64,000 bases of DNA from contig NZ_JAQKGU010000007.1 in NCBI RefSeq assembly GCF_028532725.1, positions 1 through 64,000 of the forward strand, given 5' to 3'. How positions within the stretch are numbered: the first letter of the stretch is position 1; each line of letters begins with the position of its first letter. Of the stretch, positions 7,650 to 59,961 are shown piece after piece. The notes under the pieces are model-generated. The model was not told where the DNA came from and made no database searches. It worked only from the letters and a program-made list of their open reading frames with translations. This stretch comes from Desulfovibrio sp. Fe33. GTDB lineage: Bacteria > Desulfobacterota > Desulfovibrionia > Desulfovibrionales > Desulfovibrionaceae. A program made the position numbers and the translations under genes.

Positions 7650-7976
7650 ATGTCCGACGCCAACATCTCGGCCCTGTCCGCTCTGTCCACCGTGCAGGAG
7701 GTCTCGGCCAACAACATCGCCAATGTGAACACCGACGGCTTCAGGGCTTCGGCGGTTTCCCTGGAGTCCGGGCCGGAAGGGCGGGGCGTCGAGGTGGCGT
7801 CCATCACCGAATCCTCCGTGCCCGGCGTTGTCGTTGACGGCGTGGAGACCTCCAATACCGACCTCGGCCGTGAGATGACGGACATGATGGTCACCGGACA
7901 CGCCTTTTCCGCGAATACCGCTTTCATCCGCGCCCAGGAGGAGATGACCGGCCATCTCCTGAACATGATCGCCTGA
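7650..7976 (+). CDS. Miniature FlgC-like flagellar rod protein
   Basis: This 108-residue protein carries both terminal signatures of flagellar axial proteins: ALSTVQEVSANNIANVNTDGF at the N terminus and LGREMTDMM...FIRAQEEMTGHLLNMI at the C terminus. The middle is only about 40 residues. Canonical FlgB/FlgC are about 130-150 residues and sit with fliE; this gene is isolated, 19 kb from the flg cluster. It could be a rod paralogue, a reduced FlgC or a decayed copy. Translation signals look normal (GAAGGGAG before ATG). Confidence 0.75.
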   Translation: MSDANISALSALSTVQEVSANNIANVNTDGFRASAVSLESGPEGRGVEVASITESSVPGVVVDGVETSNTDLGREMTDMMVTGHAFSANTAFIRAQEEMTGHLLNMIA

Positions 7977-8063
7977 CGCCGTTGGCGTCCGCTTTCCGGG
8001 CGGGCGATCAGCCGTGGCAACCGCCTTTTCCCCGCGTCGCGTCCGCTCTCCGGCGGCGGGCGC

Positions 8064-8093
8064 TTGACATCTCCTTCCATCCTGTCATATGGT
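8064..8093 (+). promoter_or_regulatory. Probable sigma-70 promoter of the COG2509 gene
   Basis: A perfect TTGACA (8064-8069) is followed after 18 bases by TATGGT (8088-8093). This is the expected housekeeping promoter layout, about 80 bases upstream of the ATG at 8175. Confidence 0.6.
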
Positions 8094-8174
8094 CTATCAT
8101 GGCCCGTCTGCGCGCCTTTCCGAATTTTTCGGGAAGACACAGAGCGGGCCATACTTGCGACAGACGAGGAGACC

Positions 8175-9569
8175 ATGACCAATACCGTGAAGACAGATTT
8201 CGACGTCATTATCGTGGGGGCCGGCCCGGCCGGGTTGTTCGCCGCCTACCACCTCAGCGAGCATTCCAACCTGGACGTTCTGCTGATCGACAAGGGCAAG
8301 CGCTCCCTGAAGCGCAACTGTCCCATCTCCGGCGATCAGGAGTGCATCAAGTGCCGCCCCTGCAACATCCTGTGCGGCGTCGGCGGGGCCGGGTTGTTTT
8401 CCGACGGCAAGCTCAACTACATTCACAAGCTCGGCAAGACCGACCTGACCCAGTTCGTCGGCATCACCGAGGCGATTCAGCTTATCGATGAGACCGAAGC
8501 CATCTTCAACAAGTTCGGCATGGACGGAAAAGTCTTCCCTACCGACATGGAGGCGGCGAAGCAGATTCGCAAACAGGCGCGCAAGGACGGCATCGACCTG
8601 CTCGTTATCAAGCAGAAGCATCTGGGCAGCGACAACCTGCCCGGCCATATCGCGGGCATGGCCGATCATATCTGCGACAAGGGTGTGGTCTTTCGCACCT
8701 CCGAGACCGTCACCGATGTGCTCGTGAGCGAGGGGCGGGTGACGGGCGTCGTTACCAGCCGGGGGGAATACGCCGCCCGGAACGTTATCCTCGCGTCCGG
8801 ACGGGTCGGAGCCGAATGGGTTGCCCATGAGGTTCGCAAGCACGGCATCCAGGTGTCCCAGCGCGGCATCGAGGTAGGCGTTCGCGTCGAGGTCCATAAT
8901 GAGATCATGCAGGACATCTGCTCGGTTATCTACGACCCGACATTCTTCGTCCGTACCAACAAGTACGACGATCAGACCCGCACTTTCTGCACCAATTACG
9001 GCGGGTACGTCGCGCTTGAAAACTATCAGGACTTCGTTTGCGTCAACGGCCATGCGCTCATGAACAAGAAGTCCGACAACACCAACTTCGCCTTCCTTTC
9101 CAAGGTAGTTCTCAACGATCCGGTGGAGGACAACCAGGCGTATGGCGAGTCCATCGGCCGTCTGGCCACCCTTATCGGAGGCGGCAAGCCCATCCTTCAG
9201 CGGTTCGGCGACCTCAGGCGCGGCCGCCGGTCCACCTGGGACCGTATCGGCAACGGCTACATCGAGCCGACACTCAGGAATGTGGTCCCCGGCGACATCG
9301 CCATGGCCCTGCCCGAGCGTATCCTGACCAACCTTATGGATGGTCTGGAGCAGCTCAACAACGTGGTGCCTGGCGTGTCCAATGACGAAACCCTGCTCTA
9401 CGCCCCGGAAATAAAGTTCTTCGCCACCCAGGTCGAGACCCGCGAGCACCTCGAGACCAGCGTGGACGGTCTGTTCGTGGCCGGAGACGGTCCCGGCGTG
9501 GCCGGCAATATTGTCGGCGCGGCCGCCACCGCCCTCATCCCCGCCAAGGAAATCATCCGCCGCTCGTGA
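8175..9569 (+). CDS. FAD-dependent dehydrogenase of the COG2509 family
   Basis: This 464-residue flavoprotein has an N-terminal dinucleotide motif GAGPAG (15-20). Next comes a cysteine cluster C57-x2-C60-x2-C63-x3-C67, then GVGGAGLFSDGKL, the hallmark of COG2509 uncharacterised FAD dehydrogenases. The C-terminal GLFVAGDGPGVAGNIVGAAATAL is the usual FAD-ribityl loop. The cysteine spacing resembles a 4Fe-4S motif, but cluster binding is unproven. Its substrate is unknown. The ATG follows GACGAGGAGACC. It is monocistronic, with its own promoter and terminator. Confidence 0.85.
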   Translation: MTNTVKTDFDVIIVGAGPAGLFAAYHLSEHSNLDVLLIDKGKRSLKRNCPISGDQECIKCRPCNILCGVGGAGLFSDGKLNYIHKLGKTDLTQFVGITEAIQLIDETEAIFNKFGMDGKVFPTDMEAAKQIRKQARKDGIDLLVIKQKHLGSDNLPGHIAGMADHICDKGVVFRTSETVTDVLVSEGRVTGVVTSRGEYAARNVILASGRVGAEWVAHEVRKHGIQVSQRGIEVGVRVEVHNEIMQDICSVIYDPTFFVRTNKYDDQTRTFCTNYGGYVALENYQDFVCVNGHALMNKKSDNTNFAFLSKVVLNDPVEDNQAYGESIGRLATLIGGGKPILQRFGDLRRGRRSTWDRIGNGYIEPTLRNVVPGDIAMALPERILTNLMDGLEQLNNVVPGVSNDETLLYAPEIKFFATQVETREHLETSVDGLFVAGDGPGVAGNIVGAAATALIPAKEIIRRS

Positions 9570-49606: not shown

Positions 49607-49693
49607 GGACCATCGTTATTGACAATCCCTGTGGGAAAAGTGTAGACGGACTTTCCTCAATGCGTACCGTAGGTTCATGGGCGCATGAGTAAT

Positions 49694-49787
49694 GGAGAAG
49701 TGGCCGAGTTGGCTGAAGGCGCACGCCTGCTAAGCGTGTTATGGGTGTAAAGCTCATACGAGGGTTCAAATCCCTCCTTCTCCGCCA
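49694..49787 (+). tRNA. tRNA-Ser (anticodon GCT), CCA encoded
   Basis: A 94-base class II tRNA: acceptor GGAGAAG/CTTCTCC, anticodon stem CACGC/GCGTG with loop CTGCTAA (anticodon GCT), long variable arm, T-loop GGGTTCAAATCCC, and encoded CCA. TTGACA at 49618 may be its -35 element. An integrase remnant lies immediately downstream in the opposite orientation. Confidence 0.96.
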
Positions 49788-49794
49788 GAAATCT

Positions 49795-49827
49795 AAGGGT
49801 TACGTTGAAAGACGTAACCCTTTTTTT
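49795..49827 (+). terminator. Rho-independent terminator of tRNA-Ser(GCT)
   Basis: AAGGGTTACGT pairs with ACGTAACCCTT across a 6-base loop, followed by a run of Ts. Confidence 0.9.
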
Positions 49828-49995
49828 GTTCAACGAATCGTTTTGTGCATCCTTTTGTTCTGATACAGACGGTTTTTCATCCAAAATGCTATCCAAGACG
49901 TCGTCCCAATTTCGCATGTCCGGCATGAGCGATTTGATGTAGTTGTCCGTTGTCGTTAAGCGTGCGTGCCCGAGAAGCCGTTTGGGGAACTCTGA
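49806..49995 (-). pseudogene. C-terminal remnant of a tyrosine recombinase/integrase
   Basis: The minus strand encodes LLGHARLTTTDNYIKSL, the H-xxR/L-xTTxxY signature of phage-type integrases. The nucleophilic tyrosine codon is at 49939-49941. About 45 further C-terminal residues follow (MPDMRNWDDVLDSILDEKPSVSEQ...). Everything upstream of the signature is gone, replaced by unrelated sequence and the structured repeat. The frame runs into the tRNA gene without a stop. It marks a former integration event at tRNA-Ser. Confidence 0.7.
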
Positions 49996-50047
49996 TGGTT
50001 TTTCTGAAGGGGGGTATCCGTTTCCGAATGGGATCAATATCGTTAAC

Positions 50048-50194
50048 TCCCCGCTTTCGCGGCAGAACGTCGCAGAGCGAAAAGCCCGCGCCGAAGGCGC
50101 AAACAGGGGATGCAAGGGTGCGAGCCCTTGCCCGCCGGAGGCGAAATCTCCCGACAATTGCCGCGAAGCGGCTTTCAATGCCTGATTTTTCTCA
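50048..50194. repeat. Structured intergenic repeat, copy 2 (four consecutive hairpins)
   Basis: This is the second copy of the element at 9643-9785, with the same four hairpins and the same GCCCGCCGGAGGCGAAAT block. It sits between the integrase remnant and the PilZ gene. Confidence 0.75.
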
Positions 50195-55549: not shown

Positions 55550-55952
55550 AAAACGTCCCCAATGGCAATGTTTCGCCGATGGGCACAGGCAGGTCCGGCC
55601 AATCCGACTCTGCGGTCGGGCCATGTCTGGAGGCTCATAAAAGGCAGGTTGAAAAAAAGCAGCCCACCCAAATAGTCAGGGTAAGTTCCGCTGTCAAGGT
55701 GAATCGTATTCCGCGAATAGTTCCCATTTAATAGGCAGTTCGCGGGCTTGTTTCTCCTTTTCCCCCATGGTGAAAAGGGAGCCGCCGCTTGTCGTGGAGG
55801 CTTCGTTTGATCGCATGGGAATCGTTTTGCTTCATGGCGGGAACGTGATGTTTGGGTGAAGTTCCGGCGGTTTTTGGGGGGCTACTTCACTCCAATGGAT
55901 ATGTATGGTAGGGAAAGTCTGCCTGGTATGTGATTCCGGCTTTGGAGTTCAT
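55550..55952. other. 403-base divergent intergenic region
   Basis: This lies between the divergent SulP gene and the exported-protein operon. It contains no convincing coding frame. Promoters for both directions must be here, but no strong -35/-10 pair or operator stood out. Confidence 0.4.
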
Positions 55953-56573
55953 ATGAGACAGTTTATCGGGATGGTTGTTATAGTCTGCGCGGTCGTGCTC
56001 CTGGGGCGGACCTCTGGAGCCGAGGAATTGGCCGATGTGGTGTGGGAGCTGGTTGAGGAGGTCGAGCGGCACCCGGAAAGTGCCGACGCGCAGAAACGGG
56101 CGGGTGGAGCGTATCTGCTTCTGGCCCGCGAAGTGGGGGAAAATCCGGCCCGTGAAGTGTTCGGGGCCATGGCGGATTTTCACCTCGACCAGGCCGTGCA
56201 GCTTGATCCAGACGATATGGAAGCGCTGGAGTGGCTGGGCGAGACGGCCGTGCTCAACATGGACCCTTCGAAGGCAGCCGCCGTGTTCGAGGAGTTGGTC
56301 CGCCGCCAGACCGATCCCGCCGAGGGGAAGAACCTGGTCCAGTTGCATACTTGCTATCAATGGCTGACCGACCCGTGGCGGGGGGTGGCGTTCTATCGTT
56401 CCCAATTGGAGCGGATGCCCGATTGGCCTCAGGTGAAGTTTCTGATGGCGTCCTTTCTGCTGGACATGGATCGGGCTGAAGCCCTCGACATCCTGTTGGA
56501 GCTGGCTTCGTCACCTGGTACTCCGGAGGGACTTCGGGCCACGGTCCGCGCCGCGCTGAAGGAGGAGTTATGA
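55953..56573 (+). CDS. Exported TPR-like protein, first gene of an uncharacterised operon
   Basis: This 206-residue protein begins with a signal peptide (MRQFIGMVVIVCAVVLLGRTSGAEE). It then has helical TPR-like repeats: ADVVWELVEEVERHPESADAQKRAGGAYLLLAREV, FHLDQAVQLDPDDMEALEWLGETAVLNMDPSKAAAVFEELV. The ATG at 55953 is preferred over an upstream ATG at 55905, because the signal peptide starts there and GGAG precedes it. Its TGA overlaps the next ATG. No known family beyond TPR; likely a periplasmic partner protein. Confidence 0.75.
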   Translation: MRQFIGMVVIVCAVVLLGRTSGAEELADVVWELVEEVERHPESADAQKRAGGAYLLLAREVGENPAREVFGAMADFHLDQAVQLDPDDMEALEWLGETAVLNMDPSKAAAVFEELVRRQTDPAEGKNLVQLHTCYQWLTDPWRGVAFYRSQLERMPDWPQVKFLMASFLLDMDRAEALDILLELASSPGTPEGLRATVRAALKEEL

Positions 56574-58936
56574 CCCTCCGTCCGTTGTTTCTTCTGCTGG
56601 CGTTTCTCGGGTTATCCCTGCCGGCCTTTGCCGCTCCACAAGATTATTTTGCCAGAAAACAGCAATTGTACACGGAGTGGGAAAAGGTCAGGCTCAATTA
56701 TCCCGACGCTTCCCAACGGGCCGCCGCTTTTAAGCGGTATATCACCGATCCACTGGAGAAAATGGACAACGATCGGATCGGCGATTTTTACAAGGTGTGC
56801 AAGGAGGCCGACATTCCGGTGGACGACCAGCTTTTCTCCGCCGGTTCTCCTCCCGGCAGCCCCAGCTTCAAGCCGGGTGGGGACCTTGATGTCATGGCGC
56901 GAGACCCCCAGGCGTACTACCGCTTTAAGAAGGCCGCCCGGCAGTACGGCTTGAAGGTTGCGACCAACGGCAACTCCATCACGATCGAATCCCATGAAGT
57001 GACGATGCATCTGCCGGATTCGAAATACAGCAACCCCACCAGCGCGGCCAATCGGATGAAGGCCATGGCGAGCGACATGGAAGCCGCCGAAGGATACGCC
57101 CTGGGGTCGGGAACAACCATTCCCCATGGCAAAGGGGCGGTGCGTCTCGAGCGGGGCATCATGAATACGCCGATTGTCGCTATCGGGGATTTCTACAAAA
57201 AAGGGCACGAGGCCGACCATTTCCTTAAAGGACCTTACAATCGGCAGAAGGTCATTGAATCCCTCAATTTCGGCAACAAGGCGGCCTATAAGGCGAGCGG
57301 CGCGTTGAAAAGCGCGGGCATCAATCCCGGGATGTCCATTCACCGCATGAATCTCGCCGAGCTGGACGAGTTGCTCGGCAACCGGACCGGGCAGGAAGCC
57401 ATTGATTTTGCGCGTCAGTACAATCGCAGGACCTTCCAGCAACTGGGAGAGATGCGTGAACTGGCGGCGGCACAGTCGGCCAAGGATATCGCCACAGTTC
57501 GGCAGCAGATACAAGCCCTCAAAAAGGCTGGCAATTACAGGGAGGCCACGGCTCTCAGGCAGCAGCTCAATACAACGAGGGAGCAGGTCCAGCGCGTGGC
57601 GGAGCTGTCCGGCCGCAAGAGCCTGGTCAGCGAAGTCTTCAGCAATGCGGACGATGTCGGGGACGCCACAAGTGGCAAGCGCGGCGCGGAAATGCTCCGG
57701 AAGCTTTCGAAGAATCTGGAGAAAGTCACCCCAGCCCTGAAAAAGCTGGGAGCCATGCTCGTCAAGGCGGCGGTGTGGGCGGGCAGGCTCGCCCAAGTGT
57801 ATGAAGTCTCCAAGATGTATGACCGGGCCGAAGAGCGCGAGGCCGAATGGGCCAGGCGGATCGGGCGGGACCCGTCCACAGGCGGCATCGCCAAGGAATT
57901 TCTGTTCGAGGCCCTCGGGTTTCATCAGTCCAAGCTTGAGGCCGAGGAAGCCTTGCGCCGCGCGGGCAAGGACCCCAATGAAATGCTGACCTGGGACTTT
58001 ATGAAGCATTTCGTCATGAACGAGACCGACTACCTCATCAAGGCATATAATCCGCTGGTGCATCTGAGCCCGACCGAGAGGTTCTACAAATACTTGCGGG
58101 ACAACCCTGACGCGGCCAAACAATTGCTCGGCAAGCCTGTCGCGCCCAAGCCTCTGGCCGAGACGCCGTCCGATATACCCCTGATGGTGGCCGCATCCGT
58201 CAAGGGAGCTGAGGACGACGGGGAAAAGGAGGGCGAAGCTGTCCTGCCCCCGATGATCGCCGCCTCTCTCAAGAAGGATGAGGCCAAGGACGACGGGAAG
58301 CCCAAGGCGTCCGAAAGCGGCGTGGGGGATGATGCCGAACCGTCGCCAATGGTGGCCGTTTCCACGGGGAAAAAGGAACCCGAGCCCGAGGCTGAGCCCG
58401 AACCGGCGGTGAAACCGACGTCCAAGTCAGAACCTGCGGTACAGCCGGTCGGCAGCGGGTTCAATTCGGGCCGGAATTATGCGGTCAAAGCCATCGCCCT
58501 GGATCTGGAGTCCAGAATGTGCCCCTCCGGCACTTCCTCGGCGCGGTTCGAGGGGGTGGTCCAGGGCAGTGAAATGACGGTTATCGTGCGGCAGGACGGG
58601 GTTGATTACGTCATTTCCGGACAAAAGGCCCAATACCTGCTCGTGCGCAACGGATACATCAGGAATCAGAAAAATTGCGGGTACGTCACCACAGGCAAAT
58701 ACAAACAGTTCGGTCCGGGCATCACCCAAGGCGGAAACGAGGGAGCCAAGAAGTCCCACGGCGAGTGCGTGGAGCAATATTGCCCCGGTTGCGTCCAGGA
58801 CCAATTGCTCGGCGTGGGGTTCGGCCACAGCCGTCCTCAGGTGGACGAGGGCGAAGTGCGCGACACCCGTTGCGCCGATTGTCTGGAAGCCAATCGTGAT
58901 AAAATCAACGCATGTACCGATTGGGGGAATCAATGA
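56570..58936 (+). CDS. Large exported protein of unknown function with possible nucleotidyltransferase-like signature
   Basis: This 788-residue protein has a signal peptide (1-21, ending AFA). At 92-107 it reads GS...GGDLD, and ITIESHEV follows at 137-144; this layout recalls the GS-x(n)-DxD ... D/E pattern of polymerase-beta-type nucleotidyltransferases. A helical, coiled-coil-prone middle (about 285-510) follows, then a linker with three imperfect PxMVAxS repeats (537, 560, 592) and a Pro/Glu-rich stretch. The C-terminal domain has cysteine pairs (C733, C737, C740, C768, C771, C782). I do not recognise the family. Confidence 0.7.
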   Translation: MTLRPLFLLLAFLGLSLPAFAAPQDYFARKQQLYTEWEKVRLNYPDASQRAAAFKRYITDPLEKMDNDRIGDFYKVCKEADIPVDDQLFSAGSPPGSPSFKPGGDLDVMARDPQAYYRFKKAARQYGLKVATNGNSITIESHEVTMHLPDSKYSNPTSAANRMKAMASDMEAAEGYALGSGTTIPHGKGAVRLERGIMNTPIVAIGDFYKKGHEADHFLKGPYNRQKVIESLNFGNKAAYKASGALKSAGINPGMSIHRMNLAELDELLGNRTGQEAIDFARQYNRRTFQQLGEMRELAAAQSAKDIATVRQQIQALKKAGNYREATALRQQLNTTREQVQRVAELSGRKSLVSEVFSNADDVGDATSGKRGAEMLRKLSKNLEKVTPALKKLGAMLVKAAVWAGRLAQVYEVSKMYDRAEEREAEWARRIGRDPSTGGIAKEFLFEALGFHQSKLEAEEALRRAGKDPNEMLTWDFMKHFVMNETDYLIKAYNPLVHLSPTERFYKYLRDNPDAAKQLLGKPVAPKPLAETPSDIPLMVAASVKGAEDDGEKEGEAVLPPMIAASLKKDEAKDDGKPKASESGVGDDAEPSPMVAVSTGKKEPEPEAEPEPAVKPTSKSEPAVQPVGSGFNSGRNYAVKAIALDLESRMCPSGTSSARFEGVVQGSEMTVIVRQDGVDYVISGQKAQYLLVRNGYIRNQKNCGYVTTGKYKQFGPGITQGGNEGAKKSHGECVEQYCPGCVQDQLLGVGFGHSRPQVDEGEVRDTRCADCLEANRDKINACTDWGNQ

Positions 58937-59847
58937 GTGTTTTCGGGCGGGCGATACTGATTTGGGCGGCCGTGCTCCTGTCGGCTCCAGCGGTTCTTGC
59001 CGACGGGTTCGACGGCCTGGAGCCGGGGCGGTCCTGCCGGGGCGAGGTCTATCGGAAGTTGGGCGAGCCGATCAGCGTGGCCACCGGGGGGAAGATTTGT
59101 TATTTCGATCCCGCTCCGTACAAGGGGAAAACAGTCCGGGCCGTGTTTTTCGATTCCGGCATCCTGCGGGAGATCGTTCTTGAGCCCGGGGCGAGTTATT
59201 CCAGGGAACAGTACGAAAAATGGCTGGGCCTGGGAACGCCGAGCGGTCACATGGAGCGGGACGGCATCCGGACGACCCTATACGACGGGCAAGGAGTCAA
59301 GCTCGTCCACGAGAGTTTGTCGCCCGACAGCCTTGTCGCGAGCTATGTTCACTACAGTGCCGATGGTTGGGAAACGGAAAAACAGCGGGCCGCATTGGAA
59401 GACCGGTTCCATGCGGCCGTGGACAAGGGGGATTGCGCGGAAATGCGGTCCGCCTTCACCTCGGGGCAGAAGCGGTTTCCGAACGTTGCCTGGTTTTACG
59501 CCGATGAGATATCGTGGACCGTGAAATGCGACCCGGATTTTCGGCAAAAGACAAACCATCTTGTTTCATTGTCGATCAAGTCGGCGGAATTGAACCCCAC
59601 GGATGATGCGTATAGATTCCTCGCGTTTGTCCATGTCTCCATTACCAAAGATCCTGCCAAGGCGCTGGCCGCGTTTAATCATCTCGATTTGAACGAGCAC
59701 CCGGATATACACGCCTACCTGGGCGGCTGTTATATGGAATTGGGAAACAAGGCCGAAGCCAGGAAGCATTTTCAAGCCTATTTGAAGCAGTTCCCGAATG
59801 GCGAACTCGCTGCCACCTCGCGCGCCGCCTTGAAAAAATTGAAGTAA
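58933..59847 (+). CDS. Exported protein with BamE/SmpA-like N-domain and TPR C-domain
   Basis: This 304-residue protein has a signal peptide ending VLA. The N-terminal segment GLEPGRSCRGEVYRKLGEPIS...KTVRAVFFDSGILREIVL resembles the small beta-alpha SmpA/OmlA (BamE-like) domain. The C-terminal half has TPR-like helices (DPAKALAAFNHL, PDIHAYLGGCYMELGNKAEARKHFQAYLKQFPNG). The ATG overlaps the upstream TGA, so all three genes are translationally coupled. Function unknown; it probably works with the large protein before it. Confidence 0.7.
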   Translation: MSVFGRAILIWAAVLLSAPAVLADGFDGLEPGRSCRGEVYRKLGEPISVATGGKICYFDPAPYKGKTVRAVFFDSGILREIVLEPGASYSREQYEKWLGLGTPSGHMERDGIRTTLYDGQGVKLVHESLSPDSLVASYVHYSADGWETEKQRAALEDRFHAAVDKGDCAEMRSAFTSGQKRFPNVAWFYADEISWTVKCDPDFRQKTNHLVSLSIKSAELNPTDDAYRFLAFVHVSITKDPAKALAAFNHLDLNEHPDIHAYLGGCYMELGNKAEARKHFQAYLKQFPNGELAATSRAALKKLK

Positions 59848-59848
59848 A

Positions 59849-59882
59849 AGTCCGGCGGCGCGCAAGCCGGGCCGCCGGACTA
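59849..59882 (+). terminator. Hairpin ending the exported-protein operon
   Basis: GTCCGGCGGC pairs with GCCGCCGGAC. There is no U-tract, so it may be an mRNA stability hairpin or an inefficient terminator. Confidence 0.5.
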
Positions 59883-59961
59883 TCCGGGAGGAGTGTTGGA
59901 AGTCTCTTTCCGCTGCGTTCCCGGGTTGGCTGTTCGGTTCCAATCGTCCCCAATCAGGCCG

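Follow-up and report, generated by a model that had tools for sequence, protein, structure and literature searches.

What does an operon of three exported proteins, none with a recognizable function at first inspection, do in Desulfovibrio sp. Fe33? The question is raised by consecutive plus-strand genes in the 64,000-nucleotide stretch that was analysed (hereafter the window): gene A (55953-56573, 206 residues), gene B (56570-58936, 788 residues) and gene C (58933-59847, 304 residues). The coordinates and the overlap sequences bore out the initial annotation, which had described three frames joined by two ATGA stop/start overlaps, at 56570-56573 (A/B) and 58933-58936 (B/C). A signal peptide on each protein had also been predicted, and a simple hydropathy scan, not SignalP, agreed with this, as evidenced by a hydrophobic signal-type sequence with an A-x-A-like site at each N-terminus. 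No second strong hydrophobic stretch was found in A, B or C (best 19-residue window past residue 30: 1.05, 1.05 and 0.92, respectively), and from the N-terminal signals we infer the export route of the three proteins. The trio constitutes a genuine exported module that is conserved, rare and apparently undescribed, and for which an enzymatic core is plausible. Our preferred reading, to which we assign a probability of roughly 0.45, is that A, B and C make up an exported nucleotidyltransferase-like enzyme module.

The evidence for this reading lies in B. A search of 5.77 billion proteins, from which the 7987 candidates sharing the most words were scored, yielded 14 matches among those scored, one of them B's own entry. 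Identity in the remaining 13 is 41-64%; 11 of these span 96-100% of B and two are pieces of 518 and 537 residues. Because B is conserved at this level and other genomes show the same gene order, the trio is more than a chance arrangement. Based on the AlphaFold2 model and structural rows of Cid1, residues 24-170 (56639-57079, +) would form an alpha/beta nucleotidyltransferase-like core. Within it, G92-S93 (56843-56848, +) begins a GS-x11-D[LV]D motif that ends in D105-L106-D107 (56882-56890, +), a putative metal-binding DxD, and E143 (56996-56998, +), at the start of the predicted strand that follows, is a candidate third carboxylate; G92-S93, both Asp residues and E143 are invariant in 13 of 13 sequences. 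The wider Pol-beta-type nucleotidyltransferase superfamily is characterized by GS, about 10 residues and DxD, and all 13 B sequences display this pattern. The best structural rows for the alpha/beta part, over residues 42-150, were those of the terminal uridylyltransferase Cid1. Model confidence (predicted local distance difference test) was 84-96 to residue 143, 74 to residue 153 and 44-61 to about residue 203.

Several results weigh against a nucleotidyltransferase assignment, in that no single test of the likeness was significant. The nucleotidyltransferase models of Pfam matched none of the 13 B members, and hhalign against 20 Polbeta domains gave an expectation value (E) of 0.034, with six of 200 shuffles equally good. 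The sole Pfam match to B was tRNA_bind_3 (E 0.075, far under the cut-off), NCBIfam gave no matches, and no significant sequence relative was found in the PDB (best E 0.063, with the family profile). Nor is there a significant sequence relation to ANT(2'')-Ia, ANT-4, ANT(4')-IIb or LinB, antibiotic nucleotidyltransferases that are stand-alone cytoplasmic enzymes. Since no existing sequence model was matched significantly, we refer to B as nucleotidyltransferase-like and not as a member of the superfamily. The initial annotation had been unable to place the middle protein; its first 290 residues, which look nucleotidyltransferase-like, make it easier to place than that.

When the domain model was compared with the PDB using Foldseek, 9u42 (E 0.32), 3r4q (E 0.77) and 2wl9 (E 2.1), which are dioxygenase and glyoxalase chains, ranked above every HEPN chain; no nucleotidyltransferase core was among the rows shown, and two dioxygenases also appeared in a separate structural list. 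Such rows would suit another fold for the N-terminal domain of B, for example a beta-alpha-beta-beta-beta unit of the glyoxalase/dioxygenase group, the GS-DLD motif then being a coincidence. We regard this as quite improbable: no dioxygenase or glyoxalase match was significant, the spans covered 55-100 alignment columns, and the invariant GS-DLD-E residues and the bundle behind them would be left unexplained.

B begins with a signal sequence at residues 1-21 (MTLRPLFLLLAFLGLSLPAFA; 56570-56632, +), its cleavage site being predicted from the hydropathy scan. Behind the core, a helical bundle at residues 199-310 (57164-57499, +) resembles HEPN and ANT C-terminal domains, although unrelated helical bundles match equally well. 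The family alignment and the model then revealed long helices containing a strongly conserved core at residues 311-525 (GRDPSTGGIAKEFLFEALGF; 57500-58144, +), followed by a low-confidence Pro/acidic linker at residues 526-629 (58145-58456, +), a small beta-rich domain at residues 630-722 (58457-58735, +) that hhalign identified as common to a family of long B-like proteins, and a Cys-rich tail at residues 730-788 (58757-58933, +; Cys 733, 738, 741, 768, 771 and 782). Eight Cys lie within the last 140 residues.

This long helical middle, the low-confidence linker and the Cys-rich tail would also be consistent with an envelope scaffold, in which B would be structural, with an inactive or look-alike alpha/beta domain and disulfide-rich ends, and A and C would be assembly chaperones. 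Fold searches of B without a significant match favor such a role, and the TPR (tetratricopeptide repeat) partners with their weakly BamE-like domain suggest assembly work. We nevertheless find it doubtful, because the constancy seen here would not be needed in a dead domain: the putative active-site residues are invariant in the B sequences, and the long family shows a comparable, likewise invariant G, DxD, E-x-T set.

For the nucleotidyltransferase-like reading, the HEPN/MNT pairs offer a point of comparison. MntA has been described as binding Mg and ATP through its GSX10DXD motif and a third Asp, and as transferring AMP to a tyrosine on its HEPN partner (PMC7641770). B is similar in its motif (GS-x11-D[LV]D as opposed to GSX10DXD) and in having a nucleotidyltransferase-like core beside an HEPN-type bundle, whereas MntA is a small antitoxin whose HEPN toxin is a separate protein and B is a large exported chain holding both parts. 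B further differs by its lack of a Pfam match, its TPR partners and the absence of RX4HXY from its bundle; the two-gene layout with RX4HXY is hence not that of B, and the motif turns up in two of 13 relatives, at residue 49 and not within the bundle. By analogy with MntA, B would move a nucleotide to an acceptor outside the cytoplasm.

The two outer proteins had been described as carrying TPR-like helices, a description that Pfam bears out for C; TPR-type repeats were all that Pfam and NCBIfam recognized in A and C. Its TPR region at residues 201-300 (59533-59832, +) passes the Pfam cut-offs for TPR_2 (32.5 versus 27 bits), TPR_19, TPR_6 and TPR_14, whereas A, a signal sequence followed by TPR-like helices, falls below every one (nearest TPR_19, 24.3 versus 25 bits; best E 1.1e-05). 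The BamE/SmpA-like domain also proposed for C reduces to a weak likeness: residues 22-145 (58996-59367, +; GLxPGxS..EV...LGxP) display the PG..EV..LG.P pattern, and PF04355 (BamE) was detected in two of eight C-family members, with a best E of 0.17, while the C of the window gave no such match. Unlike BamE, C is fused to TPR, is under the Pfam cut-off and belongs to a family in whose members no lipobox cysteine was seen by eye. A protein search with C gave five matches, of which P0015 (98% identical) is listed as window-encoded. Cys 35, 56, 168 and 199 of C recur at matching spacing in all three close relatives (P0016-P0018); the Cys conservation in B and C fits an oxidising compartment and may reflect disulfides or bound metal.

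The distribution of the trio was surveyed in overlapping genome sets. B was present in one of 60 relatives, 36 of which constitute the genus (i.e., 1/36 of the genus), and, within the class, in three of 297 genomes (G000, G179 and G230); scans of single genera found it in one of 16 genomes in the genus of G179 and one of two in that of G230. A was strong (E < 1e-70) in exactly these three, with 12 other matches weak at about 1e-4, and C was strong in G000 and G230, with five other matches weak. The full trio is thus found in two genomes, each from a different genus, and a third genome, from another family, has the A-B pair, which establishes co-occurrence beyond one strain: A, B and C are together in G230 and A-B in G179, and the A homologs of these two genomes are 58-59% identical to the window's A. 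The four-base A/B overlap is kept in all three (ATGA, ATGA and GTGA); B and C, which overlap in the window, are separated by 11 bases in G230. The suggested complex made in fixed ratio is conjectural; of the three genomes with A and B, one gave no match to C. A contig scan with the A1 query returned no matches despite the existence of whole genomes with B; the scan therefore misses relatives.

The surrounding genes vary. Around the A-B pair of G179 lie an amino acid permease and two proteins of 279 and 847 residues without a clear family. The latter (L006:11733-14276, +) reads by eye like a zinc-dependent phospholipase C / P1-nuclease type enzyme, and Pfam gave only a weak PKD match (E 0.017). 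G230 has a Sel1-repeat protein and a gene reading by eye like a glycogen-debranching enzyme.

A sister species of the same genus, G009, provided an empty site. Its left flank matches the window to 55947 (89%) and its right flank from 59957 (83%), so that 4,009 bases here (55948-59956) stand against 166 unrelated bases there. The trio is hence a clean unit of gain or loss, and gain is the simpler reading than loss in relatives because of the 1/36 presence in the genus. A foreign composition was rejected, the G+C contents of A, B and C (62.0%, 59.2% and 57.4%) being close to the window's 59.8%. About 6 kb to the left of the trio, a short frame (49675-50178, -) with a tyrosine-integrase-like stretch seen by eye (LGHARLTTTDNYIKS) runs into the antisense of the tRNA-Ser(GCT) gene (49694-49787, +); it probably represents the remnant of an integrase at a tRNA site.

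Beyond these genomes, a survey of 395 genomes of the phylum detected B in G000; in G427 (metagenome-assembled genome SL3-B22.2) only the C-terminal domain of B was matched. A 1068-residue frame of G427 contains the 630-722 domain of B (hhalign probability 97.4%, E 1.4e-11, 32% identity) and has six relatives besides its own entry among 7996 candidates scored. Directly behind it, with a four-base overlap if a TTG start is used, is a 490-residue C-like protein in which the N-terminal domain of C is followed by PDZ and then TPR. An Omnitrophota metagenome-assembled genome (L056) encodes a 1068-residue relative (29% identity in the best segment, matched over residues 24-877) with a different last part, in which no common C-terminal domain was seen, and a 379-residue C-like protein 13 bases behind. 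The N-terminal domain of C, common to both of these partners, is kept in all linked C-like genes seen. It occurs in one of 24 genomes of the order of G427 (G427 itself) and in four of 297 phylum genomes: G000, G427 and, weakly, G334 and G349. The G334 match (E 1.2e-6) is a 200-residue protein with CAP_assoc_N (E 0.0003) and BamE (E 0.013) both below cut-off, on a contig that ends just upstream, so that a partner there is possible; that of G349 (E 7e-4) covers 61 of 124 positions. No A-like gene was found by tblastn beside the long B-like genes in L054 and L056, both contigs ending at most 0.8 kb upstream of B. The N-terminal parts of short and long B proteins did not align significantly (the best local stretch, at the E-V-T strand, had E 0.17), and the long family reached E 0.073 over 15 columns against Polbeta. 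With the trio in G230, the A-B pair in G179 and B-like/C-like pairs in two further lineages, the trio is apparently an undescribed set of co-occurring exported proteins, in keeping with the initial annotation, which had named it the best candidate for an undescribed system.

Members of the long family differ from B in other respects. A Gly/Ala-rich, glycine-zipper-like hydrophobic stretch (L054:2030-5236, -; about residues 475-535) could interact with membranes, the best 19-residue hydropathy being 1.5-2.0 in P0020-P0026 versus 1.05 in the window's B. Their tails vary, being Cys-rich in P0025 and P0026 and consisting of short repeats (GW..GIV....MDA.T..T.GG) in P0020-P0024, with one copy only in P0023. 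L056 also has a gene (7670-8461, +) that reads by eye like a class D beta-lactamase (STFK motif).

The patchy presence, the clean presence/absence site and the modular ends, with a C-terminal domain common to otherwise unlike proteins and a different end in the Omnitrophota copy, would be in keeping with a secreted antagonism factor, i.e., an exported nucleotidyltransferase-type toxin for neighbours, in whose secretion or loading C and A would assist. Such a toxin would act like exported alarmone synthetases, with a different enzyme. We consider such a factor unlikely: no gene stands out as an immunity gene, the partners being exported too, no secretion-system genes were seen by eye in the open reading frame lists around the G179, G230 and window copies, PADLOC gave no matches for the trio, and the toxin part of polymorphic toxins is usually at the C-terminus.

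Other candidate identities were rejected. A defence system was discarded on the PADLOC result. Phage or plasmid cargo was set aside with no B relative on viral contigs (48 pattern stretches, none confirmed; the annotated phage collection was not searched) and no relative of B or of the long-family P0024 on plasmids; PHROGs gave two weak matches of unknown function, E 0.066 for B and E 0.00069, to a 64-position model, for the B relative P0006 (from Deltaproteobacteria bacterium HGW-Deltaproteobacteria-18). As for a metalloprotease, S-H-E-V-T-V-H in B has the form HExxxH instead of HExxH, and at this place the long family lacks His; at residue 213, HExxH is found in two of the 13 sequences covering it (the window and P0002), ten having HEARD/HEARE and one HHGRH.

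Under the nucleotidyltransferase-like reading, the operon would be a small exported enzyme module. Within the periplasm or beyond it, B would attach a nucleotide to a protein, an RNA or a small molecule, and C, with its BamE-like domain and TPR, and A, with its TPR, would assist B in the periplasm by folding, holding or placing it; we infer this activity and these partner roles. It is possible, and we propose it tentatively, that the operon represents an undescribed class of exported nucleotidyltransferase plus HEPN-like systems with a dedicated BamE-like/TPR partner and swappable end domains, patchy in Desulfobacterota and Omnitrophota, that would use nucleotides to modify targets in the envelope or in neighbour cells, outside the cytoplasm.

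Nucleotide transfer is usually seen as cytoplasmic chemistry, and an exported nucleotidyltransferase would be unusual because the substrates lie in the cytoplasm. In the literature searches made, secreted, exported, periplasmic or extracellular nucleotidyltransferase was not found as a phrase, and those on the operon's protein features in Desulfovibrio returned only work unrelated by title. A 2025 report describes exported alarmone synthetases, exported nucleotidyltransferase-type enzymes as B would be, with kinetics fitted to low substrate and one acting extracellularly (PMC12691689), and a polymorphic-toxin survey describes the RelA/SpoT domain as related to the pol-beta fold (PMC3482391). 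B differs from them in its GS-DLD motif, its lack of a RelA/SpoT Pfam match and its operon with two TPR proteins. The module is easy to test, its three genes having clear limits and its candidate residues being invariant. If the reading is true, the alarmone synthetases would gain a counterpart: a dedicated exported module representing a second kind of exported nucleotidyltransferase-type enzyme.
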